DNA of 64,000 bases from Halochromatium roseum (GTDB taxonomy: Bacteria > Pseudomonadota > Gammaproteobacteria > Chromatiales > Chromatiaceae). The number at the start of each line of letters is the position of its first letter. Within the stretch, counting starts at the first letter, position 1. Below are positions 9,467-60,104 of this stretch, one piece after another. Location: assembly GCF_016653315.1 (NCBI RefSeq), contig NZ_NHSH01000006.1, positions 1-64,000 of the forward strand. Direction: 5' to 3'. The notes under the pieces are model-generated. The model saw nothing but the letters and a program-made list of their open reading frames with translations, ran no database searches and was not told the origin of the DNA. The position numbers and the translations under genes were made by a program.

Positions 9467-11395
9467 CTAATACTCGAAATTCCACTGCAGGCCGGTGCTT
9501 GGGCCGATATGAACCCGCTTGTGGTGCTCTTCTCCCGGGTTGGCCCCTGGGTTGGCCAGCTGTCCGGTCTCGCCAAGCTCGACCAGAATCTCCGCACGTT
9601 GATCAAGCCAACGCTCGAGGTCGCCGGGGCGTGACAGCGAGATTCGGCGCCTAGCCCGAGCCACCAAGGCCAGCGTCTGCAGACGCGACGCCGCATCAAG
9701 ACCCTCGAGCAAACCCGGCAGCGGCTGGGGTAATAGTAAGAAGAAGCTGGCACCAAACTCATTGATCGCGATATCAACAAATCGCCTCGATGCTTGATCT
9801 TCAAGCGTAGCCGCGATGACCAAGGCGCGATCCGGATAGCGTGAAACCAATCGCCTCAATACCCGCCGCATCAATACGGCAATCCTCGCCGCTGGTAGCT
9901 CAGCACCCGGCGACGCCCTATTGGGAGCCAGGCCGATCAACAGCATGCGCAGCACGCCAAGGCCAGAGCGCGCCAACAGGGTTGGCACCAGACGTACGGC
10001 AAATCGATCCAGATCCTTCATCGGCCCCGACAGTTGCTGATAGGGAATCAGCTGCGGGTGGTGCTTACGCTGATTGTCACGCGTCGGCGCATAGGACCAT
10101 CCGTCCAGCCAGCGGTCCGCGGCCCAGCGCCCGTGTTCGATCACGGCCAGCCGTTCGACTTCGATCGGCGCGAAGGCGAAGGATTCGACCTGGCTCTCCG
10201 GCACCGCTTGGCAGTCGGTCATCGCCAGCTTGGCCCAGAGATGATCCGCTTGGTGGCGATTCGCATCCCGATAGGATGAGGCCAGTGTCGACCAGGGTCT
10301 CCCGGCCGGTTCAAGGGATGGATCACGCCCCTGCGCCTCAGTGGTATCACGATAGTGGTTGTGGATCACCTGCGCGAGTTCATCGCCTTTGCCGTCTAGC
10401 AACACCGCGCGATCGAGCGCCAGCTGGCGGTAGCTGATCGGAATCAGCTGTCCATCCCAATCGCTGAGCTCGCCATTGGGCGTTGCATCGCCGATCTCGA
10501 TGAAGATGGGCGGCGAGCACTGCTGCATATCCAGCAGACGCTCGGCCAGCGTGCGCGCCTGGCTCAGAGCATCAGGTGCCCCTACTGGGGCGCCTGCTGG
10601 TGCCTCAGCTTCGGAATCTGGCCCTGAGCCTGGCCAGGACTCCGGCACAGAGCCTACCTCAGACGGCATTTGCGCCGCTCCCGCGGGCGCAAGCTCGCAG
10701 CAGACCATCGCCGCGGTTATCGGCGGCACACTCGCCAAGTCCAACCCATCCAGGGATCTAAACCGAAACTCGGCGATCTCATGGGCCTGCGGATAGGCCT
10801 GGATAAAGGCGCGCTCCCAGGACTCAGGGGCCTCGCTGAGCAGCGTGAAGCAGCTGCGCTGCTCGCCGTAGCCACTGATGCGCAGCGCATGCACCAATAG
10901 GGCCTCTGAGAAACGGCTGCGGCCGAGGATAGCCAGATGAATCGGCTGGCCAAACCGCGGGTCAGCACCCCAATGCAGGGGCCAGCTCGCCAGCAGACGC
11001 CGCGCGGCGGCGGTCGGGATCGAGACTTGCTCGAATTGCACATTGTCCGGCCAGCGTGCGCGCGCCTCGGCCAAGTCGCTCGCCGCAGGCGCTGCGCCGT
11101 CATCGATCAACAGCATGCGCAATGGCTGGCGTCGACGCCGTCCCTTCAGTCCGCATCCGAGCCGCGCCGACAATTCAGTCAGCAACGCAAGTGGTTCAGC
11201 CAGGCCCGCCAACAGCAGGACATCGGCAGCCAGAAGATCCTGCGGAGAAAGATCAGCAACCTCGGTCCTGATCAACCGTTCCGGGCCTCTTCGCAGCACG
11301 CGCGCGCAGGCATCGGCCACCTCGCCTTGGCCAAACAGGAGCAGGCGCCGGCGGCCCACTCGTTGCCAAGACACAGGCATCCAAGACAACGGCAT
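9467..11395 (-). CDS. RyR-domain protein with Rossmann-like and SLOG-like regions
   Basis: This 642-residue protein has several regions. Residues 17-90 and 152-235 look like two Rossmann or TrkA-N-like folds, with glycine-rich FGQGEVAD and LAILGRSRFSEALLVHAL. Residues about 240-275 are a Pro/Ala/Ser linker. Residues 340-475 match the bacterial ryanodine-receptor repeat (RyR) pattern: an IHNHYR helix, SYRDANRHQADHLWAKLA, then ERLAVIEHGRWAADRW and KDLDRFAVRLVPTLL. The C-terminus (about 485-610) has ATLEDQASRRFVDIAINEFG then FFLLLPQPLPG, which resembles SLOG nucleotide-sensor domains. No membrane segment is evident. The ATG at 11395 overlaps the OsmC stop by one base, so the pair is translationally coupled. 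The role is unknown; nucleotide or ligand sensing is inference. Confidence 0.75.
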   Translation of the reverse strand: MPLSWMPVSWQRVGRRRLLLFGQGEVADACARVLRRGPERLIRTEVADLSPQDLLAADVLLLAGLAEPLALLTELSARLGCGLKGRRRRQPLRMLLIDDGAAPAASDLAEARARWPDNVQFEQVSIPTAAARRLLASWPLHWGADPRFGQPIHLAILGRSRFSEALLVHALRISGYGEQRSCFTLLSEAPESWERAFIQAYPQAHEIAEFRFRSLDGLDLASVPPITAAMVCCELAPAGAAQMPSEVGSVPESWPGSGPDSEAEAPAGAPVGAPDALSQARTLAERLLDMQQCSPPIFIEIGDATPNGELSDWDGQLIPISYRQLALDRAVLLDGKGDELAQVIHNHYRDTTEAQGRDPSLEPAGRPWSTLASSYRDANRHQADHLWAKLAMTDCQAVPESQVESFAFAPIEVERLAVIEHGRWAADRWLDGWSYAPTRDNQRKHHPQLIPYQQLSGPMKDLDRFAVRLVPTLLARSGLGVLRMLLIGLAPNRASPGAELPAARIAVLMRRVLRRLVSRYPDRALVIAATLEDQASRRFVDIAINEFGASFFLLLPQPLPGLLEGLDAASRLQTLALVARARRRISLSRPGDLERWLDQRAEILVELGETGQLANPGANPGEEHHKRVHIGPSTGLQWNFEY

Positions 11396-11886
11396 CAATC
11401 GCTCTGGTGCAGCAGATTGCCCGCCTCATCGAGCACCAAGACGCTCATCGGTATGCCGGCCCGGACACTGGCTGAGACCACGCAGAAGTCTTCAAACAGG
11501 GTCTTGCAACGCTCGAACCGCTTTGATTCGAGCAGCGCCGGCGCAACGATCAAGCGCACCTCCATGCGGCCGATGCGCAAGCGTTTCTTCTCGTTACGCA
11601 CCATCACGCAGGTGACCTCGGTGCGCAGGCTCTGCTCCGGCGGCTCCTCCTTGCCGATGCAGTAGAGCAGACTTGCCGAGAGACAGTTGCCGACCGCGGC
11701 GGCGAGCAGCCGCGAGGCATTCGGTCCATTGGTGCCACCCAAGGGCGGTGGCTCATCCATCAGCAGATCGGCGGCGCGCTTCCAATCGAAGGCGACATTG
11801 ATCTCGAAGCCCTCGCGCTGCTCGAGCTGGATGGTGAAGCGGCCCGCTTCGTCGCTCGCCTGTGAAGCATTGGTCTCAGTTGTCAT
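11395..11886 (-). CDS. OsmC family protein
   Basis: This 163-residue OsmC/Ohr-family protein has both conserved redox cysteines, C68 in GNCLSASL and C135 in FEDFCVVSASVR. Members reduce organic hydroperoxides or handle other small reactive thiol substrates in the cytoplasm. The start at 11886 is chosen because GGAGACGAGA precedes it; two in-frame ATGs upstream add only Arg/Thr/Glu-rich residues. The stop overlaps the start of the RyR-domain gene, so the two form one operon. It lies 215 bases after eutC on the same strand. Confidence 0.85.
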   Translation of the reverse strand: MTTETNASQASDEAGRFTIQLEQREGFEINVAFDWKRAADLLMDEPPPLGGTNGPNASRLLAAAVGNCLSASLLYCIGKEEPPEQSLRTEVTCVMVRNEKKRLRIGRMEVRLIVAPALLESKRFERCKTLFEDFCVVSASVRAGIPMSVLVLDEAGNLLHQSD

Positions 11887-19574: not shown

Positions 19575-19856
19575 ATGAAACTGATCCCCTTACCTGACCT
19601 GGGTCCACACCCGGTGACAGAATTCGACTACGGCGGCGAGCAGTCTCGCCCGCCACTGGTGGCCGATGACGCCACCTGGGCCGCGCATGTCTTTAATCGC
19701 ACCGGCGCCCCCGGGGTGCTGCGCGAATGGTGGTACCACCGGCCTACCGGGGGGTGGTACCTGTTCGAGCGCGATACGGCCCAGGATCGCTTCCTCCGCT
19801 CCATTCCCGTGCAGGACATCTGCTATGAGCTCCCGACTGACACCTCAGCCGTTTGA
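19575..19856 (+). CDS. mgdB: N-methylglutamate dehydrogenase subunit B (sarcosine oxidase delta-like)
   Basis: This 93-residue small subunit of the SoxD family has conserved patterns EFDYGGEQSRP and REWWYHRPTGGWYLFERDT. True sarcosine oxidase delta subunits bind zinc through a CPxCG pair near the N-terminus and a His-Cys pair later. Here the N-terminal pair reads PLPDLG and the later cysteine is missing, so the zinc site is absent. Its last 32 bases overlap the start of the next gene. It has a structural role in the four-subunit enzyme. Confidence 0.82.
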   Translation: MKLIPLPDLGPHPVTEFDYGGEQSRPPLVADDATWAAHVFNRTGAPGVLREWWYHRPTGGWYLFERDTAQDRFLRSIPVQDICYELPTDTSAV

Positions 19857-22776
19857 GTGGATCGAGCGCGCTCGCCCGCTGCGCTTCACGCTCGAGGGCG
19901 AGGCCATCGATGCGCTACAGGGCGACTGCATTAGCAGTGCCTTGTGGGCCAATGGCGTGCGCATCCTCGGTCGCAGCTTCAAATATCACCGCCCACGCGG
20001 CATCTTTTCACTCGCCAATCACGACATCAACGCCCTGTTCGAGTACGTCGATGACACCCATCTGCGCGGCGATGTAACACCGGTGCCGGCTGGCATCAAC
20101 CTCACCGCCTGCAACACCCTGGGCGGGCTCAAGCAGGACCGATACCGTTGGCTCGATCAACTCTCACCCGCGCTGCCGGTCGGCTTCTATTACAAGGTGT
20201 TCCACAAACCCCGCTGGCTGTTCCCGTTCTGGGAGCGTCTGCTGCGCCACACCGCCGGGCTCGGGCAGGTCCGCAGCAGCTGGCGGCGGCGCATCACCCC
20301 GAAGTGGTATGAGCATTGCGATCTGCTGGTCATCGGCGCGGGGCCAGCCGGCATGGCCGCGGCACTCACCGCCGCCGAGGCCGGCGCCGATGTAATCCTG
20401 GTCGATGAGCATCCGCATATCGGCGGAAGCCTGGACTATCAATGGACCAATGATCCCGGCGCCGAGGCGCCGCGCGCCACGCTCAAACAGGGCGTCACCG
20501 CGCATCCACGGATTCGCATCATGACGGCTACCGTTGCTGCCGGCTACTACCAGGATCAGTGGGTACCGCTGGCCGGCCCAGCCGGCATCGCCAAGACCCG
20601 CAGTCGCGCGCTGATCGTCGCGACCGGCGTCATCGAGCAGCCAGCCGTCTTTCGCAACAACGACCTGCCTGGCGTCATGCTCGCCTCCGCGGCTCAGCGC
20701 CTGATTGCGCGCTACGCGGTCAAGCCCTGCGAGCGGGCGGTGCTCTTAGTGGCCAATGCCGAGGGTTATCGCGCCGCGCTCGATCTGCAAGCCGCCGGCG
20801 TCGAGCTTATCGCCGTCGTCGACCTAGGCGAGCCAGCCGAGCGCGGTCCACTGGCCAGCAAGCTCGCTGCCACCGGCGTCGAGATCCTCGCCCATCACGG
20901 CCTCTATGCAGCCTCTGGCAAGGATCGCCTGAGTGCCGTCAGTGTCGCGCCACTGGGCGCCGACGGCAGCCTCGACGACACCCAGGAGCGCTGGCTGCGC
21001 TGCGACGGCGTCATCCTCAGCGTCGGCTGGGCGCCGGCGGCGCATCTGCTCTACCAAGCCGGCGCAACACTCGGGTACAGCCAGACCTTAGAGCAGTTCG
21101 TACCGCTCGAGCTGCCACCGGGCATCCAGGCGGCAGGCCGCGTCAATGGTGTGTTCGAGCTGCAGGCGCAGATCGAGGATGGCCGTCGTGCCGCCCGCGC
21201 GGCGCTCGCAGAACTGACAGCAGCAACCGACGTTGCGAGCGAGATCAAGACCAGCGGCCCAGCCAGCAATCACGACCTGGCCCAATACCGCGACCCGAAC
21301 GCCCACTCTCACCCCTGGCCGATTGTGGCGCATCCCAAGGGCAAGAACTTCGTCGACCTGGATGAGGATCTGCAGCTTGAGGATCTGTTGCAAGCCGCAC
21401 GCGAGGGTTTCGACAACATCGAGCTGTTGAAACGGTTCTCGACCGTTGGCATGGGACCAAGCCAGGGCAAGCACGCCAACATGAACGCGATTCGCGTATT
21501 GGCCAAGGTCCTCGGCAAGGCCATCGACGAGACCGGCTCCACCACGGCCCGCCCCTTCTATCACCCCCTGCGTCTGGACGACCTGGCCGGTCGACGCTTC
21601 CGCGTGCATCAACGCTCGGCCTTGCACGAACGCCATGAGCAGGCCGGTGCCTGCTTCATGGAGGCTGGTGCCTGGCAACGCCCGGAGTTTTACGGCAAAG
21701 CCGAACAGCGCGAGGCCCGCGTGCGCGAGGAAGTCGCGGCGGTGCGTGGTGCGCTCGGTCTGATCGACGTCTCGACGCTGGGTAAGATCGAGGTCCTTGG
21801 GCGCGACGCCGCACGCTTACTCGACGCCGCCTATAGCATGCGCATGACCAGGCTCAAAGCTGGCATGACGCGCTATGCGCTAATGGTCGACGAGGCAGGC
21901 GTCATCATCGACGACGGCATCGTCGGCCGCTTGGGTGAGCAGCAGTATTACCTGACCGCGACCAGCAGCCATGCCAACGCGACCTATCGCAGCCTCACGC
22001 GCTTCGCCTTGGAGTGGGGACTCCAAGTCCGGCTGGTCAATCGCACCGGGCAGCTCTCGGCGATGAATCTGGCTGGGCCAAACAGCCGCCGACTGCTCGC
22101 CGAGTTGATTGATATCGATCTCACTGACGACGCCTTTCCCTATCTCGGACTGCGCGAAGCGACCATCGGCAAGATCCCCGCGCGCCTGATGCGGGTGGGT
22201 TTCGTCGGCGAGCTCGGTTATGAGATCCATGTGCCCTATCACCGCGGCGCCGAACTCTGGGATCTGCTGATGCGCAAGGGCCAGCCCTACGGTATCCGTC
22301 CCTTCGGTGTCGAGGCCCAACGAAGGCTGCGCATGGAGAAAGGCCACATCATTGTCGGCCAAGACACAGACGGTCTGACCACGCCGTTCGAGGTCGGTAT
22401 GTCCTGGGCCGTGCACCTGAAGAAGCCTTTCTTCGTCGGTCAGCGCAGTCTGCAGATCCTCAAGCCAGGGACGGCGCGCAGCCTAGTGGGCTTCGAGCTG
22501 CAGCCCGGACACGGCTGGCCCGAGGTGGCCGAATGTCATCTGGTGATCGTCGACGGCGACATCCGCGGTCGCGTCACCAGCGTTGCATTCAGCCCCGCGC
22601 GCGGACGCATCATTGGCATGGCATTGGTGGACAGCGAGGTTGCCGGCCTTGGCCGAACACTCCCCATCCGCGCCACCGACGGGGTCCTGGTGACGGCGAC
22701 CCAGGTGGCGATGCCGTTCTACGATCCTGACGGACTGCGCCAGCAGGCCGACGTGCAACGGCAGGAGGTCGCCTGA
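19825..22776 (+). CDS. mgdC: N-methylglutamate dehydrogenase subunit C (sarcosine oxidase alpha-like)
   Basis: This 983-residue subunit resembles the alpha subunit of sarcosine oxidase. Residues 20-110 form a 2Fe-2S-ferredoxin-like or cofactor-binding N-domain. Residues about 165-520 form an NAD(P)/FAD oxidoreductase domain with VIGAGPAGMAAALTAAEAGA and a second motif near ALIVATGVIEQPAVF. Residues about 590-983 match the GcvT/aminomethyltransferase fold, which would bind tetrahydrofolate and collect the C1 unit as methylene-tetrahydrofolate. The start at 19825 is chosen because AGGA precedes it; it overlaps the previous gene by 32 bases. Confidence 0.87.
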   Translation: MSSRLTPQPFEWIERARPLRFTLEGEAIDALQGDCISSALWANGVRILGRSFKYHRPRGIFSLANHDINALFEYVDDTHLRGDVTPVPAGINLTACNTLGGLKQDRYRWLDQLSPALPVGFYYKVFHKPRWLFPFWERLLRHTAGLGQVRSSWRRRITPKWYEHCDLLVIGAGPAGMAAALTAAEAGADVILVDEHPHIGGSLDYQWTNDPGAEAPRATLKQGVTAHPRIRIMTATVAAGYYQDQWVPLAGPAGIAKTRSRALIVATGVIEQPAVFRNNDLPGVMLASAAQRLIARYAVKPCERAVLLVANAEGYRAALDLQAAGVELIAVVDLGEPAERGPLASKLAATGVEILAHHGLYAASGKDRLSAVSVAPLGADGSLDDTQERWLRCDGVILSVGWAPAAHLLYQAGATLGYSQTLEQFVPLELPPGIQAAGRVNGVFELQAQIEDGRRAARAALAELTAATDVASEIKTSGPASNHDLAQYRDPNAHSHPWPIVAHPKGKNFVDLDEDLQLEDLLQAAREGFDNIELLKRFSTVGMGPSQGKHANMNAIRVLAKVLGKAIDETGSTTARPFYHPLRLDDLAGRRFRVHQRSALHERHEQAGACFMEAGAWQRPEFYGKAEQREARVREEVAAVRGALGLIDVSTLGKIEVLGRDAARLLDAAYSMRMTRLKAGMTRYALMVDEAGVIIDDGIVGRLGEQQYYLTATSSHANATYRSLTRFALEWGLQVRLVNRTGQLSAMNLAGPNSRRLLAELIDIDLTDDAFPYLGLREATIGKIPARLMRVGFVGELGYEIHVPYHRGAELWDLLMRKGQPYGIRPFGVEAQRRLRMEKGHIIVGQDTDGLTTPFEVGMSWAVHLKKPFFVGQRSLQILKPGTARSLVGFELQPGHGWPEVAECHLVIVDGDIRGRVTSVAFSPARGRIIGMALVDSEVAGLGRTLPIRATDGVLVTATQVAMPFYDPDGLRQQADVQRQEVA

Positions 22777-23393
22777 TGGCTTCGATAGCAACGCTCGATT
22801 CGATGCAGCCTGTGTCACCGACCGCGACCCGCTCAGTCAGCCTCCAGCCTCGGGCACGTCCACTTTGGCACCTACTCGGGCCGGGCAGCCCCGGCGCGGT
22901 ACAGTCCGCAGGCTTGCCGCTACCCGAGATCATGCAAGCGGCGGCGCTGACGGATGGCTTCATCGCGCGCACCGGGCGGGAAGAATTCCTGATCGCGGCC
23001 ACAACGCCACCCACAGCGGATGGTCTCTGCTGCTGGTGCTATGGCCGCGATGATCGCGTGCTGGCACTGACCGGCCCCGACTGGCGCCGCGTCATGGCCC
23101 AGGTTTGCCATGCGGACCTCCGCGGCTTCGGCCCGAATGACTGGCAGCTGTTGGCCGCTGCGGGCGTCAATCTCTGGTGTCTCGGCATCGACGAAGGTCT
23201 GCTGCTGGGCTGCGATCCGAGCCTCGGCCACTACCTGCAACAGACGCTGACGGAGGTGGTGCGCGACCTGACTGCGGCCAGCGGCCAATCAGGCGTGCAA
23301 CCGACCTCACAGAGACCGACACCAACGCTAGCACCAGAGCCAGCATCAGCATCAGCATCAGCATCACCATCGCGCATCGGAGACCAACTATGA
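22776..23393 (+). CDS. mgdD: N-methylglutamate dehydrogenase subunit D (sarcosine oxidase gamma-like)
   Basis: This 205-residue gamma-like subunit shows the weakly conserved SoxG pattern around [18 protein letters not shown] and ends the dehydrogenase set. Its ATG overlaps the mgdC stop by one base, and its stop overlaps the gmaS start by four. The last 35 residues are low-complexity, rich in Thr, Pro, Ala and Ser. They include (Ala-Ser)n encoded by a 6-bp tandem repeat at 23341-23364, so the tail length may vary between strains. Confidence 0.75.
23341..23364. repeat. 6-bp tandem repeat inside mgdD
   Basis: CAGCAT is repeated four times, 25 bases before the gmaS start. The unit length is a multiple of three, so slippage changes the Ala-Ser tail of MgdD without shifting the frame. 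Confidence 0.9.
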
Positions 23394-24724
23394 CGCCGCA
23401 AGACATCGACAGGTTCATCAGCGACAACGACATCAAGTATGTGCTAGCCCAGTTTGTCGATATCCACGGCGTGGCCAAGACCAAGGCGGTACCAGCGCAT
23501 TGCATCCACGACGTCATCAACGATGGCGCCGGATTCGCCGGCTTTGCCGTCTGGGGATTGGGCATGGAGCCGCAAAGCGCTGACTTCATGGCCAAGGGTG
23601 ATCCGACCACGCTCAGCATCGTGCCCTGGCAACCGGGCTATGCCCGCATCGTCTGCACCGGTCATGTCAAGGACCAGCCTTATCCCTATGACTCGCGCTA
23701 TGTGCTGCTGCGCCAGCTCGAGCGGATCAAACACAAGGGCTGGACCCTCTACAGCGGTCTCGAGCCCGAGATGTGCCTGATGCGACGCGGCGCCGATGGC
23801 CGCCTCAACCCAGTGGACCACAGCGATGTGCTGGATAAACCTTGCTACGACTACAAAGGGCTGTCACGGGCACGCGCGTTTCTGGAGCAACTGGTCGAAT
23901 CGCTGCAGAGCGTCGGCTTCGATGTCTATCAGATTGACCACGAAGACGCCAACGGCCAGTTCGAGATCAACTACACCTATAGCGACGCACTGACCTCCGC
24001 CGATCGCTTCATCTTCGTGCGCATGGCCGCCGGAGAAATCGCCAACGGCCTGGGTATGATCTGCTCGTTCATGCCCAAGACCGACTCCAGCCGGACCGGC
24101 AGCGGCATGCACTTCCATTTATCCATCGCCGATGCCGAGAACAACAACCTGTTCACCGACGCCTCCGATCCCTCCGGGATGGGCCTCTCCAAGCTCGGCT
24201 ATCAGTTCCTGGCAGGGCTGCTGCATCACGCCTCGGCCCTCTGCGCCTTCGCAGCACCGACCGTCAATTCCTACAAGCGCCTGGTGGTGGGCCGCGCACT
24301 CTCCGGCGCCACCTGGGCACCGGCCTATATCGGCTATGGCGACAACAACCGCTCGGCCATGGTGCGTATCCCCTACGGTCGCCTCGAGTTCCGACTGCCG
24401 GACTCCGGCTGCAACCCCTATCTGGTGCATGCAGCGATCATTGCCGCGGGTCTCGACGGCATCGAGCGTGATCTCGATCCCGGTGAGCCCATGAATATCA
24501 ACTTCTATAACCTGGAGCGTGACGAATGTGTCCGTCGCGGCATCGGCATCCTGCCCCAGAACCTCGATGAGGCCATCAATGCGTTGGAGGCAGACCCCCT
24601 GTTCGCCGAGGCGCTGGGCTCAGAGATCGTTGGTGAATTCATCAAGGTCAAGCGCATGGAGTGGACCGAATACAGTCGGCATGTGTCCGACTGGGAGGTC
24701 CAGCACTATGCCGAATTTTTCTGA
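23390..24724 (+). CDS. gmaS: gamma-glutamylmethylamide synthetase (glutamine synthetase family)
   Basis: This 444-residue member of the glutamine synthetase family would couple methylamine to glutamate with ATP to give gamma-glutamylmethylamide. The N-terminus [18 protein letters not shown] is typical of the GlnT/GmaS branch rather than of housekeeping GlnA. Catalytic-core motifs include [24 protein letters not shown], the ATP loop region NSYKRLVVG, and [19 protein letters not shown]. The substrate call rests mainly on the flanking mgd and mgs genes. The start overlaps the mgdD stop (ATGA). Confidence 0.86.
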
Positions 24725-50328: not shown

Positions 50329-51900
50329 CTATTCGAGAACCAGCTTCCGCCCAAACGGATGCCGGGCATTCGCGTTGACAGCCGGCACGGTCCAGATCAC
50401 CGGATAACTGGGCTTGTAGTCCGCTGGGCCATCGAGATCGGTGAGGAACAGGGCGATATCCGGGGCGTGGCGCTCGGCCTCGCGTAGCAGCGGGCTGAAG
50501 TCGGTGCCACCACCGCCCTCAAAGGCCAGTTCGCGCAGGTTGGAGCGGCCAGGCTCGAACTGGGCGACGCCGGTCACGCGATCATCGCCAGCGATGATCG
50601 TGAGTCCTGCCTCAAGGCGGCGGCTGATGGCCTCGATCTCGCGCGCGAAGCGCTCGAGCAACGACGGATCGATGGAGCCAGAGAGGTCGACCATGACCAC
50701 CAACCGCGGCACTGCACGCGAGGCGGTGCGGCCTGGCTCCCAGGGCAGACGCTGTCCGCTGGCAGTGCGCCCCTGATTGGCCAGATAGGAGCGCGACGGA
50801 CGCGACCAGGATTGATCCGGCGTGCGCGCCAGACCGCGGGTAAGCAGCGTGCGCAGCAGGTGCTCCCAAGGCGTGCGCACTTTTGGCAGGTCGGCGATCA
50901 GCTCCCGCAGCATGGAGTGGGCGCCGTCGCCGGCGTGGGCGCGGATCAGCCGCTCGCGCCATTCGCGCGCCTGTTCAGCCTCTTGCTCGGGACGTAGATC
51001 ATCGTCGGCAGGTAGCAGATCACGTGGCGTCTCGGCCCCGAGCCAGCGCGCGCGGCTAGCGCGCGGACCGTCCTCGCGCGCAGCACTCGGCGCCGCATTC
51101 AACTCAGTCTCGAGCTGCTGACCAGCGCGGCCACTACGCTGGCCACTGTTGCCGTCTCGCCGGCGGTTGCTACGGTTCTGATCGCCGGTACCCGCTTGCA
51201 AGCGCGGACGTCGGTCATCAATGGCACGGTAGAGCCGCTCGAGATCCCATTCGAGCAGCGCCGCAGCAGGACGCTGCTCGCGATGCAGGATGCTGGAGAT
51301 CAGCCCTTCGAGCATGACTGCATTGCGCGGCAGCTCGAGCCAGGGCAGATGTCCGAGGGTGCTGTTGACGATGGCATCAGCGCAGAGATTGAAGAGCTGC
51401 GGATCAACATCGCCGATCAGGCGCGCCAGTGCCCGCTCGCGTTGCGCGTGCTGCAGCGCGACATGGAGCACCTGATGCGCGACTTGGCCGATCTGCAGCG
51501 GCAGGCTGAGCGCATCAAAGGCTGGGGTGTAGAAGATGGTGCGGCCATCATTGGCGACCATGGCCGTTAGACCGGCCTCGGCCTCAACCGCCTCGCGCTC
51601 ATTCAGCCGGCTGCGAGAGCTATCCTCAGTCACCCCGCTGCGAGAAGCATCAGCCTCAGGTGCTCCGCCGCGAGAGGTACCTTCAGCCGCCCAGCCGCGA
51701 GAGGCTCCTTCATTCGCCGCGCTGCGAGCGCGATGCTGAGTGTTGGCTAGACCTTCTAGACCCACACCCTGCTGCTGCCCCGGGAGCACATCGACATCCT
51801 GATGACGAACCCAGAGCGCGAGTCCACCGGTCGAAGGTGCGTACTCGACCATCTTCTGGATCGCGCGGGTACCGCGATGGGTATGAAGGGAGGCTTGCAT
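50329..51900 (-). CDS. VWA-like protein (DUF2201 type), partner of a MoxR ATPase
   Basis: This 523-residue protein has an N-terminal region related to the putative metallopeptidase part of DUF2201. Here the family HExxH-like site reads HQVLH (142-146), so the catalytic Glu appears replaced. Residues about 235-300 are low complexity. The C-terminal VWA-like domain (398-523) has a MIDAS site DLSGS at 405-409, with GGGGTDFSP near 462 and FLTDLDG near 485. Such proteins act with MoxR-type AAA ATPases, possibly as metal or cofactor insertion chaperones. A Ser-Arg-rich segment (65-100) consists of degenerate 10-residue repeats. Confidence 0.84.
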   Translation of the reverse strand: MQASLHTHRGTRAIQKMVEYAPSTGGLALWVRHQDVDVLPGQQQGVGLEGLANTQHRARSAANEGASRGWAAEGTSRGGAPEADASRSGVTEDSSRSRLNEREAVEAEAGLTAMVANDGRTIFYTPAFDALSLPLQIGQVAHQVLHVALQHAQRERALARLIGDVDPQLFNLCADAIVNSTLGHLPWLELPRNAVMLEGLISSILHREQRPAAALLEWDLERLYRAIDDRRPRLQAGTGDQNRSNRRRDGNSGQRSGRAGQQLETELNAAPSAAREDGPRASRARWLGAETPRDLLPADDDLRPEQEAEQAREWRERLIRAHAGDGAHSMLRELIADLPKVRTPWEHLLRTLLTRGLARTPDQSWSRPSRSYLANQGRTASGQRLPWEPGRTASRAVPRLVVMVDLSGSIDPSLLERFAREIEAISRRLEAGLTIIAGDDRVTGVAQFEPGRSNLRELAFEGGGGTDFSPLLREAERHAPDIALFLTDLDGPADYKPSYPVIWTVPAVNANARHPFGRKLVLE

Positions 51901-51936
51901 CGACGGGGATACGGCTGAGTGCAGACGACTCGCAGA

Positions 51937-53031
51937 CTAGCCACTGAGCCCAGCCTGCTCGCGCGCTTCGCTGTAGCGCCGATAAGCGGGACTCTCGAGC
52001 ACCGCGCCTTCAAGCCCGGTCTCGAGCGCGCGCTCCAACAGCAGTTCCATTGCCAAGGTCTGCGCCTCACGGATCGGCAGCGGCTCGCGGGCTGGCGCAT
52101 CCGGTAACTGCTCGATGATGGCCAGTGCACGGGCCATGCGTTCCGGGTCGCTCGCCGCCGCCAGCAGCGCATAGATCATGCCGTAGAGCGCATCCAGGTT
52201 GGTCGGCAACAGCGCCGCGGTAGCCTCGCCCGGCTCGGCCTCGAGCAGCGCGACGACGTCGACGCCGGCTTGGATCTCCTTGAGCACGCCAAACAGCTCG
52301 GCGGCATTGGCGGCGCCGATGCGACCCTGCACGAAGACCCGCTTGGCCTGTTCGGAGAGACCAGAGCGCAACACGTTGGAGATGTCCTCCCAACCGCGCG
52401 GGCTGGCACCGATCAGGTGGTCATTGGCGAGCTGCGTCTGGGTATCGTCGAGCTTGTCCGGGCGCACCTTCAGATAGGCCATCACCTCAGGCGCAAAGCC
52501 CTGGGCAACGGCATAGCTGAGGAAGGCATCGATCACGGTCTGGACATTGAAATGGAACATCCGATCCGCCAACGCGGTACCCATGTCATGACTAACGGCA
52601 CCGTGGAAACTGGCATTGCCGGCCGCCACCAGCTGCCAGCCATCCGGCAACCGGTAATGACCCACACGCCGATCTAGGATCAGCGAGTAGGCCGAGATCT
52701 GCAGCCGCTGATCGGCCGCGGTCAGCTCATCGAGAAACAGGATGCCTTCGGGCTGATCGGCGCTCGGCAGGAACTCGGGTGGAAACCAGACCGTTTTGGC
52801 CTGGGTCTCGTCGGCATAGATGGCGCCGCGGATATCGACCGGCTCGATGGTGGTGAGGCGTAGATCGATCAGCGGGACGCCGAAGTGGTCGGCGACCTGA
52901 CGCACGATCGATGACTTGCCGACACCGCGCGTGCCCCAGAGCATCGAGGCACGCTGGCGTAGTACCGGATCAGCATATTGTTCGATGAGCGCCTGCTTGG
53001 CCGCAGCAATCGAGACCGGCGGGATATTCAT
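51937..53031 (-). CDS. MoxR-type AAA+ ATPase
   Basis: This 364-residue AAA+ ATPase has Walker A GTRGVGKSS (33-41), Walker B ILFLDE (97-102), and sensor region GWQLVAAGNASFHGAV. It resembles MoxR/YehL-like chaperone ATPases, which remodel or load cofactors into partner proteins together with a VWA protein. It lies between the membrane-protein gene, whose stop overlaps its start by four bases, and the VWA gene 36 bases downstream. The partner system cannot be named from sequence. Confidence 0.88.
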   Translation of the reverse strand: MNIPPVSIAAAKQALIEQYADPVLRQRASMLWGTRGVGKSSIVRQVADHFGVPLIDLRLTTIEPVDIRGAIYADETQAKTVWFPPEFLPSADQPEGILFLDELTAADQRLQISAYSLILDRRVGHYRLPDGWQLVAAGNASFHGAVSHDMGTALADRMFHFNVQTVIDAFLSYAVAQGFAPEVMAYLKVRPDKLDDTQTQLANDHLIGASPRGWEDISNVLRSGLSEQAKRVFVQGRIGAANAAELFGVLKEIQAGVDVVALLEAEPGEATAALLPTNLDALYGMIYALLAAASDPERMARALAIIEQLPDAPAREPLPIREAQTLAMELLLERALETGLEGAVLESPAYRRYSEAREQAGLSG

Positions 53032-54267: not shown

Positions 54268-55146
54268 TCATGGCCAAGCCTCCCAACCTGCCAAAGGCGC
54301 CAGGTTCACGGCCATATTCGAGCGCGCCCCATGCCGGGCATTGAGCCCATAGACGACGCTGTGGATGCCGACCACGCGGCCCTGATAGAGCACGGGGCCA
54401 CCGGAATCGCCTGGACAGAGTGAGGGCGCCTGCTCCGACTTCTGACCGGCTTCGGTATAGAAGTTGACCGCATCGACCCGAATCACCCGCGTCCAGCCCG
54501 AACGGCGCGCGGCCGCTGCTCGGTTACCGACTCGACGCAGATCGGCGCAGCCAAAGCCGACCAGCTCGACCTCTGCGCCCGCTGCTAGCGGTGTGAAATC
54601 GACTTCGGCAACGGGGATCTCCGGGGTGGCTGTGCGCAGCCGAATCAAGGCGATGTCAGGATAGCGCTCAGCGAAGTGGTAACGCATGCGCAATCCCTGC
54701 TCAAGCTGTTCGGTCGGTAGCGCCGACGCCATGCTGCTCAGCTCAGCGAGACGCTGCCGACGATAATCGACTAGCTTTGCCAATCCCTCTCGGTACGCAT
54801 CCGGCAACAGGATGTCGTCAACGACGGCAATCATCGCGCCCTTGTCGCTCAGCTGTTGCGGGGCATTGTCGAGCGAGATCTCGGCAGCGTGTCGAAACGC
54901 CGACATCAGCTCGCCGCTGCGCGCATTCACCACGCAATGCGCGGCGGTCAGCAGCGTCTGCGGACCGATTTTCACGGCGCTACAGATGAACCGTTGATCA
55001 GCACGGAGACTCAACACTTCGGGATGACGCTGCACGCTGTCCTCGCTTCCGCCGCTCAACGCCAAGGCAGTGCTGGCGATCAGCAGCCAAGGGCCGAGTC
55101 CGAAGCGTGCGAGACGCAAGCGCCTTCTTGGATTATGGATTGGCAT
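54268..55146 (-). CDS. secreted trypsin-like serine protease
   Basis: This 292-residue S1-family protease has a basic N-terminus followed by a signal-like span (PWLLIASTALAL). The catalytic triad is intact: H70 in TAAHC, D164 in YPDIALIRL and S248 in CPGDSGGP. The gap between His and Asp (94 residues) is about 40 longer than in trypsin, because of a helical insertion rich in Leu, Glu and Arg (about 105-155). It probably acts in the periplasm or outside the cell. It is divergent from the binding-protein/porin operon. Confidence 0.88.
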   Translation of the reverse strand: MPIHNPRRRLRLARFGLGPWLLIASTALALSGGSEDSVQRHPEVLSLRADQRFICSAVKIGPQTLLTAAHCVVNARSGELMSAFRHAAEISLDNAPQQLSDKGAMIAVVDDILLPDAYREGLAKLVDYRRQRLAELSSMASALPTEQLEQGLRMRYHFAERYPDIALIRLRTATPEIPVAEVDFTPLAAGAEVELVGFGCADLRRVGNRAAAARRSGWTRVIRVDAVNFYTEAGQKSEQAPSLCPGDSGGPVLYQGRVVGIHSVVYGLNARHGARSNMAVNLAPLAGWEAWP

Positions 55147-55439: not shown

Positions 55440-55868
55440 ATGCAGTGGCCGCAGGTCAGCGCCCTGATCTCAGCCCTATGCTTCAGCCTTTCTGCGCTGA
55501 GCTTGGCACAGGCGCAGCAGATCATCGTCAACGATGATGTCACGATCAGCGACATTGATCGTAATCGTGCACGACTGATCTTCACCATGCGGATCAACCA
55601 ATGGTCCGATCAACTGCCGGTCGCCGTCTTCGTCCTCCCCGACGACGCCCCACTGCACCAGGCCTTCGCCAAAAGCGCCCTCGGGGTCTTCCCGTACCAG
55701 CTCAGACAGACCTGGGACCGCCAAGTCTTCTCTGGCACCGGCCAGGCACCACTCCAGGTTGCCAACGAAGCAGAAATGGTCCAACGCGTTCGTCAAACAC
55801 CAGGCGCCATCGGCTATGTTGGCCAGCCACTGAGCCTGCCCGGGATCAAGGTCGTCGAGGTCAAATAG
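55440..55868 (+). CDS. PstS-like periplasmic binding protein, short form
   Basis: This 142-residue exported protein has a signal peptide (hydrophobic VSALISALCFSLSALSLAQA) and a short version of the phosphate-binding-protein fold. The recognisable C-terminal part is TWDRQVFSGTGQAP, EAEMVQRVRQTPGAIGYV and the final strand GIKVVEVK. Such short PstS-like proteins bind small anions or act as sensor partners without an ABC transporter. The start is ambiguous: ATG at 55440, or GTG at 55422. The porin gene starts 2 bases after its stop. No pst genes are adjacent. Confidence 0.78.
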   Translation: MQWPQVSALISALCFSLSALSLAQAQQIIVNDDVTISDIDRNRARLIFTMRINQWSDQLPVAVFVLPDDAPLHQAFAKSALGVFPYQLRQTWDRQVFSGTGQAPLQVANEAEMVQRVRQTPGAIGYVGQPLSLPGIKVVEVK

Positions 55869-55870
55869 TC

Positions 55871-57091
55871 GTGGACTTACGCAGCGTTCTCACAACCTGG
55901 ATCTTGCTGCTCGCGGTCGGCAGCAGTATCGCCGACAATTTCACAGAGTCAAATGCGGATCAACGACTTGCCGATCAACTGCAGCTGCATGGGTTCGCCA
56001 GCCAGGGGGCGCTCAAAACCTCAGCCAACCGGTTCTACGGCGACAGTCCAAACACCTCGTTCGACTTCACCGAGATCGGCTTGAATGCGTCTTGGCGCCT
56101 GAATCCACGGCTCAGGCTGGCGGGACAGCTGCTCTACCGACGAGCCGGCGAGATGAGTGACGACGAGCCACAGGTCGATTTCCTACTCGCGGATATCACC
56201 CTAGCCAGCGGCGATAGCTACCGTGTTGGAACCCGGATCGGCCGCATCAAGAACCGCCTTGGCCTGTATAACGAAACCCGCGATGTGCCTTTCACTCACC
56301 CCGGCATCTTCTTGCCACAGGTGGTCTATTTCGACAAGGTCCGCAACCTAATATTGTCCGCGGACGGTATCCTCGCCTATACCGATCTCTACCAACCCTT
56401 CGGCCTCTTTTCGGCGAGTCTGGCGAGCGGATTGCCCGTGGTCGATACGAATGTTGAAACGGCGTATTTGTTCGGCGACCTGCCCGGTGGTCTCGAGCCG
56501 GACGAGAACAGCTGGCTAGCCAGCCTCTGGTATTACTCACAGAACGAACGCTTGAAGCTCGGCTGGAGCGGCGCCGCCGTCTCGCTGAAGTTCGACCCCC
56601 AGCAAGGCGGCCCACTGCCGATCGGACCGGGCACGGTCGACATCCTCTACTGGATTGCATCCGCGCAGTACAACACCGAGCGCTGGAGTTTCACCACCGA
56701 GTACATGGCCGAGCCCATGCGGTGGCGGGACTTCGGACCCCTGCGCCCGGATCGAGACGCCACCGCCGAAGGGTACTATGCGCAAGTCACCCATCGACCG
56801 CTGCCCAAGTGGCAGCTGATGCTACGCTATGAAGAAGGTTTCGCCGATCGCGCCGATCGCGATGGCCTCAAACTCGAACAGCAGACCTTCGGCCTGATAC
56901 CGGCAAAGGCAACCTCATCGCGCATTCTCACGCTCGGGTTGCGCTGGGATCTCAATCAACAATGGATGCTCAAGACCGAGTATCAGCGCCACATCGGTAA
57001 CTTCATCCTGTCTGAGATCGAGAACCCCGACTTCGGCAGCTTTGACAAACACTGGGATCTGTTTGCGATTCAAGCCGCATTCAGGTTTTGA
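55871..57091 (+). CDS. outer-membrane beta-barrel (porin-like) protein
   Basis: This 406-residue protein has an N-terminal signal (LTTWILLLAVGSSIA) and many alternating amphipathic strands with aromatic belts, such as RLAGQLLYRR and WSFTTEYMAEP. It ends in AAFRF; the C-terminal Phe is typical for barrel assembly. The start is GTG at 55871, with GAGG 11 bases before it. No porin family can be named with certainty. It lies between a periplasmic binding protein and a c-di-GMP enzyme, which suggests a ligand-uptake or sensing unit. Confidence 0.78.
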   Translation: MDLRSVLTTWILLLAVGSSIADNFTESNADQRLADQLQLHGFASQGALKTSANRFYGDSPNTSFDFTEIGLNASWRLNPRLRLAGQLLYRRAGEMSDDEPQVDFLLADITLASGDSYRVGTRIGRIKNRLGLYNETRDVPFTHPGIFLPQVVYFDKVRNLILSADGILAYTDLYQPFGLFSASLASGLPVVDTNVETAYLFGDLPGGLEPDENSWLASLWYYSQNERLKLGWSGAAVSLKFDPQQGGPLPIGPGTVDILYWIASAQYNTERWSFTTEYMAEPMRWRDFGPLRPDRDATAEGYYAQVTHRPLPKWQLMLRYEEGFADRADRDGLKLEQQTFGLIPAKATSSRILTLGLRWDLNQQWMLKTEYQRHIGNFILSEIENPDFGSFDKHWDLFAIQAAFRF

Positions 57092-57112
57092 GCAAGTCGG
57101 CTGGAGGCCATT

Positions 57113-59563
57113 TTGCACAAGCCATTCGCAACCGACACCAGTGCTGAGCACCGACCCTTCTTCGGCCTCGGTTGGAAGGTGTTCATCGGCATCAGTGTTG
57201 CACTGGCGATCGTCATTCTGTCGCTGACGCTTTACTCCCACAAGGTCTTGGTTGACCAGTTCGAACGCAGCCAAGCCTACCTTCGCCACCGCCAGACCGA
57301 GCACTTCGCTAGCCTGATCGCAGATCGCTTTCAACAGATGGCGCGGGTGGCCAGCATGGTGCCGCGCCTCGAATCCCCAGCCATCGACAGCTCGGCGACA
57401 GATCATCTTCGCGACGCGCTTCAGGTCGATGGCACCCTGCTCGACCTCGAGTGGGATATTCGTTCAGTGCACTGGATCAAGATCGGTGGCACATCGCTCA
57501 CCCTCTGGCCCTCGGAGGGGTTACCGCTGCCAGCGTCTTTGCTGCGCGAGGTACAGCAGAATCCAGAACAGATCAGCGAGCACATCCTCTGTAGTGAAGA
57601 TGCCTGTCGCCAATACTTGGCCTCCCCGGTGCTATGGAACGGCGAAACCGCCGGCAGCCTGGTACTCGGGCGGACCATCGCAAGCATCCTGCTGGCGTTC
57701 CGCGAGCTGACCGATTCAGATCTTGCCATCGCACGGCCGGTTGACATTACTGAATCCAGTACAGCCTCAGCGCCCCCCCCGCTGCAATTCTTCGGAGCGA
57801 CGCAGGCCGAGCAAGTCTTGCCCTTGCTGCAATCAATCCCGACCGCCGCCTTACTCGCCAGCAACGCTCAGGCACCCTTGGCCATCCCGCTCGGAGGCGA
57901 CTGGTATGAGGTCTTTCGGATCGATCCTGCGGACAGCGAACTGCTCGGTTTTGTCATCAACCGGATCACTGATGCGCGGCGCAGCATCAGCCAGATGTCG
58001 CGCAATAGCCTGCTGATCGGCCTGCTCGGTCTGCTCGTGGCCGAGGCGCTGCTACTGCTCATCATGCGCCGCCCCATCAACCGCATTCGCACCCTATCGC
58101 GGCTGCTGCCCTTGCTGGCAGAGAACCGTTTCGAGGCCCTCGCTGATCAACTCCAGAGCGCCCAGAGCCCGACCGGTCTGCGCGACGAGATTGACGAAAC
58201 CATCGCCGTTGCACTGCGTTTGAACCAGCGCATGGCGCAGATGCAGGCCGAGCGCGAGACGGCACAAGACGAGCTGCGCTGGCTTGCCGATCACGACCCA
58301 CTCACGGCGTTGCTCAATCGTCGGCGCTTCGACCAGGAGCTGTCCAAGCTCATCGAACACAGCAAGCGCAACCAGGGCCGCGGCGCCCTGATCTTCATCG
58401 ACCTGGATAATTTTAAGGACGTCAACGATACCAGCGGACATCAGATCGGCGACCGCTTACTCAAGCGGATCGGCAAACGGCTGACCGCCTGTCTCAGCGC
58501 GGACGACAAGATCGGCCGCTTCGGCGGTGACGAGTTTGCGGTGCTCGTCGCCACGGCCACGCAGGAACAGGTGCTGAATCTGGCCGAGCAGCTCCAAGAA
58601 CGCATCCACACAACCAGGGTGCAAGCCACAGGTCACCGACACCAGGTCTCTGCCAGCATCGGCATCGTGCTCTTCCCCGATCATGGCAACGACCCTCAAA
58701 CGCTCATGGCCAATGCCGACTTGGCCATGTATCAAGCCAAGGCGCAGCATCGTCAACGCTGCCACCTCTACTCCAATCAAGACACCGCCCGCGCCGCGGC
58801 GAACGCGCGCGTGCTGTGGAATCGAGAGATGACCGAGGCGATTAAGGTCGGTCGGCTGCGGCTGTTCTACCAACCACTGATGGCACTGCCAGAGCGAACG
58901 ATCTGGCGCGCCGAAGGCCTGTTGCGCATGTACCTTGCCGATGGGCGGCTCGCAACCCCAAATGAATTCATCCCTATTGCTGAGCGCAGCGGGCTCATCA
59001 ACGCCATCGATCGCTGGGTCATGGCCGAGGCGATTCGCGTCCTGACCAAGCATCCTCACCTGTCGTTGAGCATTAACCTGTCCGCAAAGGCACTGGCCGA
59101 CACCTCGATCGAGGCCGAACTCGCGCGCTTACTGCGCAGCTCGCAGATCGATCCGCAACGGCTCACGCTCGAAATCACCGAGACGGTTGCCATCGATAGC
59201 ATCAGCGCCGCGGTAGAGCGGATCAAGCGCATGCGCGCCCTCGGCTGCCACTTTGCATTAGATGACTTCGGTAGCGGCTTTGCCTCTTACGCCTACCTGA
59301 AGCAGCTGCCGGTGGATGACGTAAAGATCGACGGCAGTTTTATCCGCGACTTGGATCGAAACGCAGAAGATCGCATCTTCGTGCAGGCGACGACCGAGAT
59401 GGCGCACGCGATGGGCAAGAAAGTGGTCGCAGAGTTCGTTGAGTCAGCAGCCATCCTTGAGGTGCTCCTCGAGCTCGGCGTCGATTTCGCACAAGGCTAT
59501 TTCATCGGCCGCCCAGCGCCGGAGCCGCCGGCTACCGCGCAAACAGTGAAAGCAAACAGTTAA
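57113..59563 (+). CDS. membrane sensor with GGDEF and EAL domains
   Basis: This 816-residue protein has a first membrane span at 21-40, then a periplasmic sensor domain of about 250 residues (no named family, with a CSEDAC cysteine pair), and a second span near 300-320. A GGDEF domain follows (RFGGDEF near 470), and an EAL domain (about 580-806) comes last. All EAL catalytic residues are visible: E in EGLLR (Ala to Gly in the signature), N in INLS, E in LEITE, DDFGSG, K in VKIDG, E in AEFVE and Q in FAQGYF. It could make and break c-di-GMP. The start is TTG at 57113 behind GGAGG. Confidence 0.88.
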   Translation: MHKPFATDTSAEHRPFFGLGWKVFIGISVALAIVILSLTLYSHKVLVDQFERSQAYLRHRQTEHFASLIADRFQQMARVASMVPRLESPAIDSSATDHLRDALQVDGTLLDLEWDIRSVHWIKIGGTSLTLWPSEGLPLPASLLREVQQNPEQISEHILCSEDACRQYLASPVLWNGETAGSLVLGRTIASILLAFRELTDSDLAIARPVDITESSTASAPPPLQFFGATQAEQVLPLLQSIPTAALLASNAQAPLAIPLGGDWYEVFRIDPADSELLGFVINRITDARRSISQMSRNSLLIGLLGLLVAEALLLLIMRRPINRIRTLSRLLPLLAENRFEALADQLQSAQSPTGLRDEIDETIAVALRLNQRMAQMQAERETAQDELRWLADHDPLTALLNRRRFDQELSKLIEHSKRNQGRGALIFIDLDNFKDVNDTSGHQIGDRLLKRIGKRLTACLSADDKIGRFGGDEFAVLVATATQEQVLNLAEQLQERIHTTRVQATGHRHQVSASIGIVLFPDHGNDPQTLMANADLAMYQAKAQHRQRCHLYSNQDTARAAANARVLWNREMTEAIKVGRLRLFYQPLMALPERTIWRAEGLLRMYLADGRLATPNEFIPIAERSGLINAIDRWVMAEAIRVLTKHPHLSLSINLSAKALADTSIEAELARLLRSSQIDPQRLTLEITETVAIDSISAAVERIKRMRALGCHFALDDFGSGFASYAYLKQLPVDDVKIDGSFIRDLDRNAEDRIFVQATTEMAHAMGKKVVAEFVESAAILEVLLELGVDFAQGYFIGRPAPEPPATAQTVKANS

Positions 59564-59624: not shown

Positions 59625-60104
59625 ATGGAGCGCGTCTATCTGTTACCCGGCGAATACCATGTCGCCCAAACGCCGTGCGAGCTTGCCACCCTGCTGGGAA
59701 GCTGCGTTGGGGTCTGTTTGCGCCATATCGACAAACCCTACGCCGCCATGAACCACTTTCTGCTGGCCAGGGCGCGTCCTGAAGACATCGACATCGGTCG
59801 TTATGGCGACCGCGCCACGACCGCGATTATTCACCTCATGCGCCGGCTCGACCCGACCGAAGGCGTGCTACGCGCGCAGCTCTTCGGCGGCGCCCAGGTC
59901 ATCGATTGTCTCGCGCCAAATGGCGACATCGGCCGCGCCAATATCGCGGTTGCTCGGCAGATCCTCGCGGCGCATCACATCCCAATTGAAGCAGAAGATG
60001 TCGGCGGCACCCGTGGCCGTCGCATCTCCTTCAATACTGCCACCGGACAGATCAGGGTTCAGATGCTCCAGACCGCGGCCGAGTTTGTCGCCGCCAATCG
60101 TTGA
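59625..60104 (+). CDS. cheD: chemoreceptor glutamine deamidase
   Basis: CheD converts glutamine to glutamate in chemoreceptors and tunes chemotaxis. The 159-residue protein has catalytic Cys27 in LLGSCVGVCL, the conserved His in MNHFLL, and the signatures AQLFGGAQVI and VGGTRGRRISFNT. AGGAGC lies before the ATG at 59625. No other che genes are near, but it follows the GGDEF-EAL gene by 61 bases and might be co-transcribed with it. Confidence 0.93.
   Translation: MERVYLLPGEYHVAQTPCELATLLGSCVGVCLRHIDKPYAAMNHFLLARARPEDIDIGRYGDRATTAIIHLMRRLDPTEGVLRAQLFGGAQVIDCLAPNGDIGRANIAVARQILAAHHIPIEAEDVGGTRGRRISFNTATGQIRVQMLQTAAEFVAANR

Follow-up and report, generated by a model that had tools for sequence, protein, structure and literature searches.

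The window analyzed here, a stretch of 64,000 nucleotides from Halochromatium roseum (contig NZ_NHSH01000006.1), carries three consecutive genes on the + strand at 55440-59563 whose predicted products would occupy the outer membrane, the periplasm and the inner membrane. The first (55440..55868, 142 aa counted from the ATG at 55440) encodes a small secreted protein related to a single lobe, domain II, of PstS, which we call a half-PBP (half periplasmic binding protein). The second (55871..57091, 406 aa, GTG start, C-terminal Phe) encodes a putative porin-like outer-membrane β-barrel, and the third (57113..59563, 816 aa, TTG start) an inner-membrane receptor with a double-Cache sensor region and GGDEF and EAL domains, the latter two being the domains of cyclic di-GMP (c-di-GMP) metabolism. 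The 2-base and 21-base spacings between these genes and the GTG and TTG starts, as given in the original prediction for this locus, are confirmed.

The TTG codon of the receptor gene is preceded by GGAGG at a distance of five bases, and because the third gene and the barrel stop codon share a reading frame, translation of the receptor must start beyond that stop. Both rare starts are retained in Lamprobacter modestohalophilus (locus L003), whose half-PBP is 97% identical to that of the window; the idea that they mark special translation was dropped. A one-base indel separates the two sequences within a T run at 57110-57116, immediately 5' of the shared TTG. The start of the half-PBP is unsettled, since ATG 55440 reads ATA in L003; GTG 55371 and GTG 55338 are common to both, and either may be the true start. 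The ratios of nonsynonymous to synonymous substitution rates (dN/dS) against L003 are 0.04 for the half-PBP, 0.18 for the barrel and 0.16 for the GGDEF-EAL gene, indicating purifying selection on all three.

Profile searches place the half-PBP near PstS at scores that do not reach curated cut-offs: it matches Pfam PBP_like_2 with an E-value of 0.0011 (19.2 bits, cut-off 27) over profile positions 97-186 of 267 only, and NCBIfam ptsS_2 at 19.8 bits against a cut-off of 206.6. Its structure model has a predicted local distance difference test score (pLDDT) of 89, with most residues past the signal peptide above 90, and its closest folds are PstS relatives, with the match to domain II of the PstS structure 4q8r giving Z 15.4 and a root-mean-square deviation (rmsd) of 1.7 over 107 residues. 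Residues 22-142 of the model align to domain II only (residues 76-210 of E. coli PstS in 1qui), and sequence comparison points to the same region. The small protein is therefore predicted with high confidence to be a homolog of PstS domain II, a single lobe. Being equivalent to that domain alone, it has no two-lobed cleft, and a lone lobe is unable to close round a ligand by itself; it is possible that it dimerizes or gains a partner lobe. The longest open reading frames of its strong family, defined below, run to about 135-210 aa, and we rejected the reading of the gene as a truncated pseudogene because these lengths are uniform over many loci and its dN/dS is 0.04.

The R..SGT residues, which we take to be the phosphate loop of PstS domain II, are replaced in the half-PBP by LPDDAPLH, ending in His73. 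This His is found in 70 of 71 distinct strong members, and Arg, His or Lys stands in its place in most distant ones, while Trp92 and Gly99 are invariant among strong and distant members alike (duplicates with identical C-terminal ends and rows with more than 60 gaps were dropped from the alignment). Together with Pro104, these residues make up a conserved face of the protein. In the original prediction the porin admits a ligand, possibly phosphate or another oxyanion, and the PstS-like small protein captures it; spelled out, a phosphate porin would let the anion in, and the small protein would bind it in the manner of PstS and present it to the receptor. The PstS-like fold and the basic residue at the old phosphate loop would suit such a role, as would the matches to Porin_O_P (PF07396, phosphate-selective porins OprO/OprP) at E≤0.1 in 4 of 21 barrels of the family, but the strong family has one PstS lobe only and has lost the R..SGT loop, the window barrel has no Porin_O_P match at E≤1, and Pst transporter genes are absent from the flanks read. 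With one lobe, no phosphate loop and a His in its place, a closed two-lobed phosphate trap is unsupported, and we rejected PstS-style capture as the principal explanation, regarding it as improbable. Weak anion binding by the half-PBP is possible, given His73 where the loop was.

The window barrel itself has only sub-threshold porin matches in Pfam, and its assignment as an outer-membrane β-barrel is suggested by matches at the level of the family, its terminal Phe and its signal-peptide-like N-terminus. In the neighbor surveys below, genes are called barrels by a rule of our own based on length and last residue, with a hydrophobic N-terminus added as a requirement in the survey of 48 strong and 58 distant half-PBPs.

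The receptor's GGDEF (58286..58759) and EAL (58823..59515) domains score 1.1e-47 and 6.2e-67 in Pfam, and the best solved match of the enzyme, also the nearest solved relative of its EAL domain, is RbdA (PA0861; E 2.8e-90). RFGGDEF is intact, the RxxD inhibitory site is absent, EGLLR stands where EALLR is expected, and DDFGSG is present; with both domains there and motifs kept, the receptor qualifies by sequence as a bifunctional GGDEF-EAL enzyme. Most enzymes of the family have both domains, with L205 and L206 having GGDEF only and an HD-GYP output replacing GGDEF-EAL in L012, from a Magnetococcales bin.

The sensor region lies between two transmembrane helices (approximately 57245..57979) and is periplasmic. 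It scores 24.6 bits against dCache_3 (PF14827), for which the cut-off is 25.7; 20 of 23 family members match this profile at E≤0.1, and the L012 sensor does so with 76.3 bits. Its model (pLDDT 80) has a double-Cache fold, the best structural matches being double-Cache domains at Z 10-13 with LuxQ among them (3c38, Z 12.1, rmsd 3.0, 189 residues aligned; 2hj9_C from the LuxP-LuxQ complex, Z 12.0). Outside the motifs that flank the membrane, the sole residues shared by all of 24 sensors are Cys160, Cys165 and Pro172 (57590..57628). Of the 34 sensors in the 370-genome set described below, 33 were checked for the resulting CX3-4C pair (G190:C66 was left out) and 32 have it; none of 28 other dCache_3 proteins, mostly chemoreceptors, does. 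These sensors are a double-Cache subfamily marked by the CX3-4C pair. Because the two Cys residues close one strand and open the adjacent one in the model, the pair likely forms a disulfide-braced hairpin.

Short gaps and rare starts mean little alone; what exceeds chance is the conservation of the set. A survey of the trio's conservation had been proposed as a check on the original prediction, and the trio passed it clearly. Scanning named genomes with the small protein as query gave 69 loci, of which the 25 loci L003-L027 form a close family, while from about L030 onward length and gene context mark nearly all as full-length PstS-type proteins. All three genes, in the order half-PBP, barrel, sensor protein, are present in 22 of these 25 loci, the exceptions being L009, without a sensor, L014, which stops after the barrel, and L018, without a barrel; at L027 just the end of the half-PBP is present, at a contig edge. 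Part of this comparison, too, was counted after duplicates with identical C-terminal ends had been dropped. The hosts are Chromatiaceae, Alteromonadales (Alishewanella, Shewanella, Alteromonas, Bowmanella), β-proteobacterial bins and the Magnetococcales bin.

An independent sample of 370 genomes of the class was searched separately with each profile. At E≤1e-12 the half-PBP profile hit 122 places, spread over 77 genomes, and the scores leave a gap between 35 places in 31 genomes at 112 bits or more and the remainder at 94 bits or less; accordingly, strong half-PBPs are those of at least 110 bits and distant, or weak, ones those below 100 bits. The sensor profile hit 34 places in 32 genomes. 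Strong half-PBP and sensor occur together in 28 genomes, the half-PBP only in 3, the sensor only in 4 and neither in 335 (Fisher p 1.7e-34), and 25 of the 35 strong half-PBPs are followed on their own strand by the sensor at 1.2-1.5 kb, a distance of one barrel-length. Among 145 dCache_3 places in these genomes, 26 belong to this sensor family and 21 of those 26 are within 5 kb of a strong half-PBP; none of the other 119 is near a strong half-PBP, and one is near a weak one. In two of the sensor-only genomes, G374 and G205, the sensor's neighbor at the contig edge is a barrel fragment; the half-PBP may therefore just be missing from these assemblies. Looser arrangements also occur: in G253 a half-PBP-barrel pair converges on one sensor while another sensor stands alone, and half-PBP and sensor are separated in G301 and in one copy in G190. 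A chance neighborhood or hitch-hiking of unrelated genes, for which nothing speaks beyond short gaps that are ordinary in bacteria, is hardly credible in the face of the same order across many genera and more than one class, the co-occurrence statistic and purifying selection.

The half-PBP family extends beyond the trio. A barrel is adjacent to 47 of 48 strong half-PBPs and to 40 of 58 distant ones examined, and a signaling gene lies within 2.2 kb of 40 of 48 and 30 of 58, respectively, with 10 of the 58 having neither nearby; the 58 were chosen non-randomly, mostly from the top of the list together with long-frame ones, and entries with identical C-terminal ends were dropped. Neighbors were labeled as methyl-accepting chemotaxis proteins (MCPs), histidine kinases or GGDEF proteins by motif patterns, with Pfam confirmation for the proteins scanned. 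Those confirmed next to distant half-PBPs are chemoreceptors (L213, L216, L222, L223), histidine kinases (L227, L118, L196) and GGDEF-EAL proteins with dCache_1 (L225, L214, L218), and Pfam identifies a SpoIIE phosphatase next to the half-PBP at L112. At L259-L262 the half-PBP is the C-terminus of a protein of 563-674 residues with a transmembrane-like stretch and a long linker; a barrel gene adjoins each of these fusion genes, and of three fusion proteins scanned, two (L259, L262) had an N-terminal part with a DnaJ score. Shewanella PdeB, which is linked to sulfate, may be a further member. Because distant half-PBPs adjoin barrels together with varied signaling genes, the stable core is the half-PBP and the barrel, and the reader is exchangeable.

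Several of these loci have architectures of their own. L112:2233-7867, from a member of the window's family, has barrel, half-PBP, SpoIIE-type phosphatase and an HD-domain gene in one direction. In L199:2529-8456 (genome G157) a tandem half-PBP-barrel-half-PBP-barrel array is followed by one sensor. The genome of the window has a second half-PBP and barrel pair at L097:7898-9591 (contig C66), 50% and 37% identical to the window's, in which the two genes overlap by four bases and no sensor gene adjoins.

We consider that half-PBP, barrel and sensor probably constitute a conserved input module that spans the envelope, with the half-PBP as the link between barrel and sensor, although we hold this with modest confidence, and the contacts, the ligand and the sign of the response are inferred. 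Since the same set recurs in many proteobacteria, the trio is probably a dedicated route for signals from the surface to the inside. The half-PBP would act as a periplasmic connector that binds the barrel, something passing through the barrel, or both, and in one such state would engage the Cys-pair double-Cache domain, shifting the balance between making and degrading c-di-GMP; the disulfide-braced hairpin would probably shape or redox-tune the docking face. Two candidate modes can be envisaged, one with a small ligand bound to the half-PBP, as in LuxP or NspS, and one in which the barrel sequesters the half-PBP in the style of YfiB and YfiR. The co-occurrence of half-PBP and sensor, the resemblance of the sensor model to LuxQ and the finding that the half-PBP is the most constrained gene of the trio in the L003 comparison favor a connector role, and Ferrimonas L018, which keeps half-PBP and sensor without a barrel, is evidence for a separate link between these two.

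Other observations weigh against a connecting half-PBP. Over 40 trios, from which duplicates with identical C-terminal ends were dropped, the distance correlation is strongest between barrel and sensor (0.84, partial 0.74), intermediate between half-PBP and barrel (0.66, partial 0.35) and lowest between half-PBP and sensor (0.60, partial 0.11). These mirror-tree distances favor a barrel-sensor or merely co-inherited link, and they are confounded by the short, noisy half-PBP (about 120 mature residues) and by shared phylogeny. Half-PBP and barrel pairs with no sensor next to them are also present in contig C66 of the window's genome, in G058 (L195) and in G301 (L200), and L009 has no sensor at all. 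Because the sensors that went into the sensor profile had been located via the half-PBP, part of the association between the two is ascertainment, though the two profiles were run independently over the 370 genomes. Finally, many Cache domains that bind small molecules tie with LuxQ within Z 1 as matches to the sensor model.

Much of this would fit a different arrangement, in which the barrel and the half-PBP work as a pair in uptake or assembly, with the half-PBP as periplasmic helper or plug. The sensor would independently detect the substrate of the barrel in a Cache pocket of its own, the genes would be together for co-regulation, and the half-PBP would never touch the sensor. The higher frequency of adjacent barrels than of signaling genes around strong half-PBPs, the pairs lacking an adjacent sensor, the strength of the barrel-sensor correlation and the tandem pairs served by one sensor in L199 are all as this arrangement would have it. 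The absence of a barrel in L018 speaks against it, however, and the MCP, histidine kinase and GGDEF genes that often adjoin distant half-PBPs would be unneeded by a pure uptake helper. We regard it as unlikely, though it deserves to be taken seriously.

A three-layer envelope arrangement, as in the original prediction, thus remains the best reading, but because the barrel-half-PBP pair occurs without an adjacent sensor, with either partner found alone with the half-PBP, we see a module with swappable readers instead of a fixed trio. A broader and more tentative proposal, which we would not yet back over its alternatives, is that half-PBP and barrel form an unnamed general surface-sensing unit that has been coupled to at least five types of reader (GGDEF-EAL, HD-GYP, histidine kinase, chemoreceptor and SpoIIE phosphatase, plus the J-domain fusion through the inner membrane), and that the half-PBP reports the state of the barrel, whether open, blocked or loaded, and captures no solute. 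If true, a lobe of a solute-binding protein (SBP) serves as a signaling connector, and an outer-membrane barrel is tied to c-di-GMP, chemotaxis and kinase outputs. To our knowledge, most c-di-GMP receptors have no known signal, and the module would give testable partners to receptors annotated just as 'GGDEF-EAL' and to proteins annotated as 'phosphate-binding'. The set is a recurrent and easily recognized putative input unit with a marker in every part, its strong form being present in 31 of the 370 genomes and its weak form in more (77 at E≤1e-12).

By analogy, the best reading is of a trans-envelope module that would work like LuxPQ, NspS-MbaA or YfiBNR and belongs to none of them. In LuxP-LuxQ, the autoinducer-2 system of Vibrio, a binding protein acts on a double-Cache sensor, and LuxQ is among the nearest folds of our sensor model; LuxP, however, is two-lobed and of another PBP class, LuxQ is a histidine kinase, and we know of no barrel in this system. 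NspS is likewise two-lobed, and YfiN is not known to have an EAL domain. NspS-MbaA, which senses polyamines in Vibrio cholerae, joins a relative of periplasmic binding proteins, described as norspermidine-binding, to a membrane GGDEF-EAL enzyme, but the system has no barrel as described in the available part of PMC5646818, whereas the window trio has a barrel, a single-lobe relative of PstS domain II and a CX3-4C double-Cache sensor. YfiBNR of Pseudomonas aeruginosa resembles the trio in its outer-membrane protein, small periplasmic hub and inner-membrane c-di-GMP enzyme, and in the importance of disulfides, but YfiB is a peptidoglycan-binding lipoprotein, unlike the window barrel (PMC4655355). 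No YfiR-type or OmpA-type match was obtained for genes 1 and 2, whose matches are to PBP_like_2 and to weak porin profiles, respectively, and YfiR and NspS are absent among the matches listed for the half-PBP, although a relation to these or to other unlisted families is possible. From PstS and other PBP_like_2 proteins the half-PBP differs in its one lobe, its lost phosphate loop and the lack of a Pst transporter alongside. Stimulation of receptors, c-di-GMP enzymes included, by SBPs is an accepted general mechanism (PMC9602780). As with such receptors, the window trio combines genes for a binding protein and a membrane GGDEF-EAL enzyme in one unit, and it lacks a complete ligand-binding SBP, the half-PBP being a single lobe. 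We found no description of the half-PBP, barrel and receptor as a set in the open-access literature searched, which does not establish its absence from print.

The genome of the window also contains, at L125:104-3285 (contig C83), a gene for a binding protein of PhnD-like appearance that overlaps by four bases a gene for a membrane protein of PAS-GGDEF type, which matches dCache_3 weakly and has a CX5C pair; this is possibly a second route to c-di-GMP, with a full-length binding protein. Upstream of the trio lies a divergent gene for a trypsin-like secreted protease (54268-55146, - strand), and 61 bases 3' of the GGDEF-EAL gene is one for a CheD chemoreceptor deamidase (59625-60104, + strand). 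CheD was dropped as a fourth member, as a gene of such size and place occurs only in the near-identical L003 and L098 among the loci compared. A promoter and terminator scan gave matches no more frequent than in shuffles. Elsewhere in the window, 9470-11398 (- strand) encodes a bacterial protein with an RyR (ryanodine-receptor) domain (Pfam E 3.9e-11), and 50329-53031 (- strand) holds a DUF2201/VWA protein gene and then an AAA/MoxR-like ATPase gene, the latter assigned by eye. The sarcosine-oxidase-α-like and glutamine-synthetase-like genes at 19666-24721 (+ strand) are suggestive of an N-methylglutamate type pathway.

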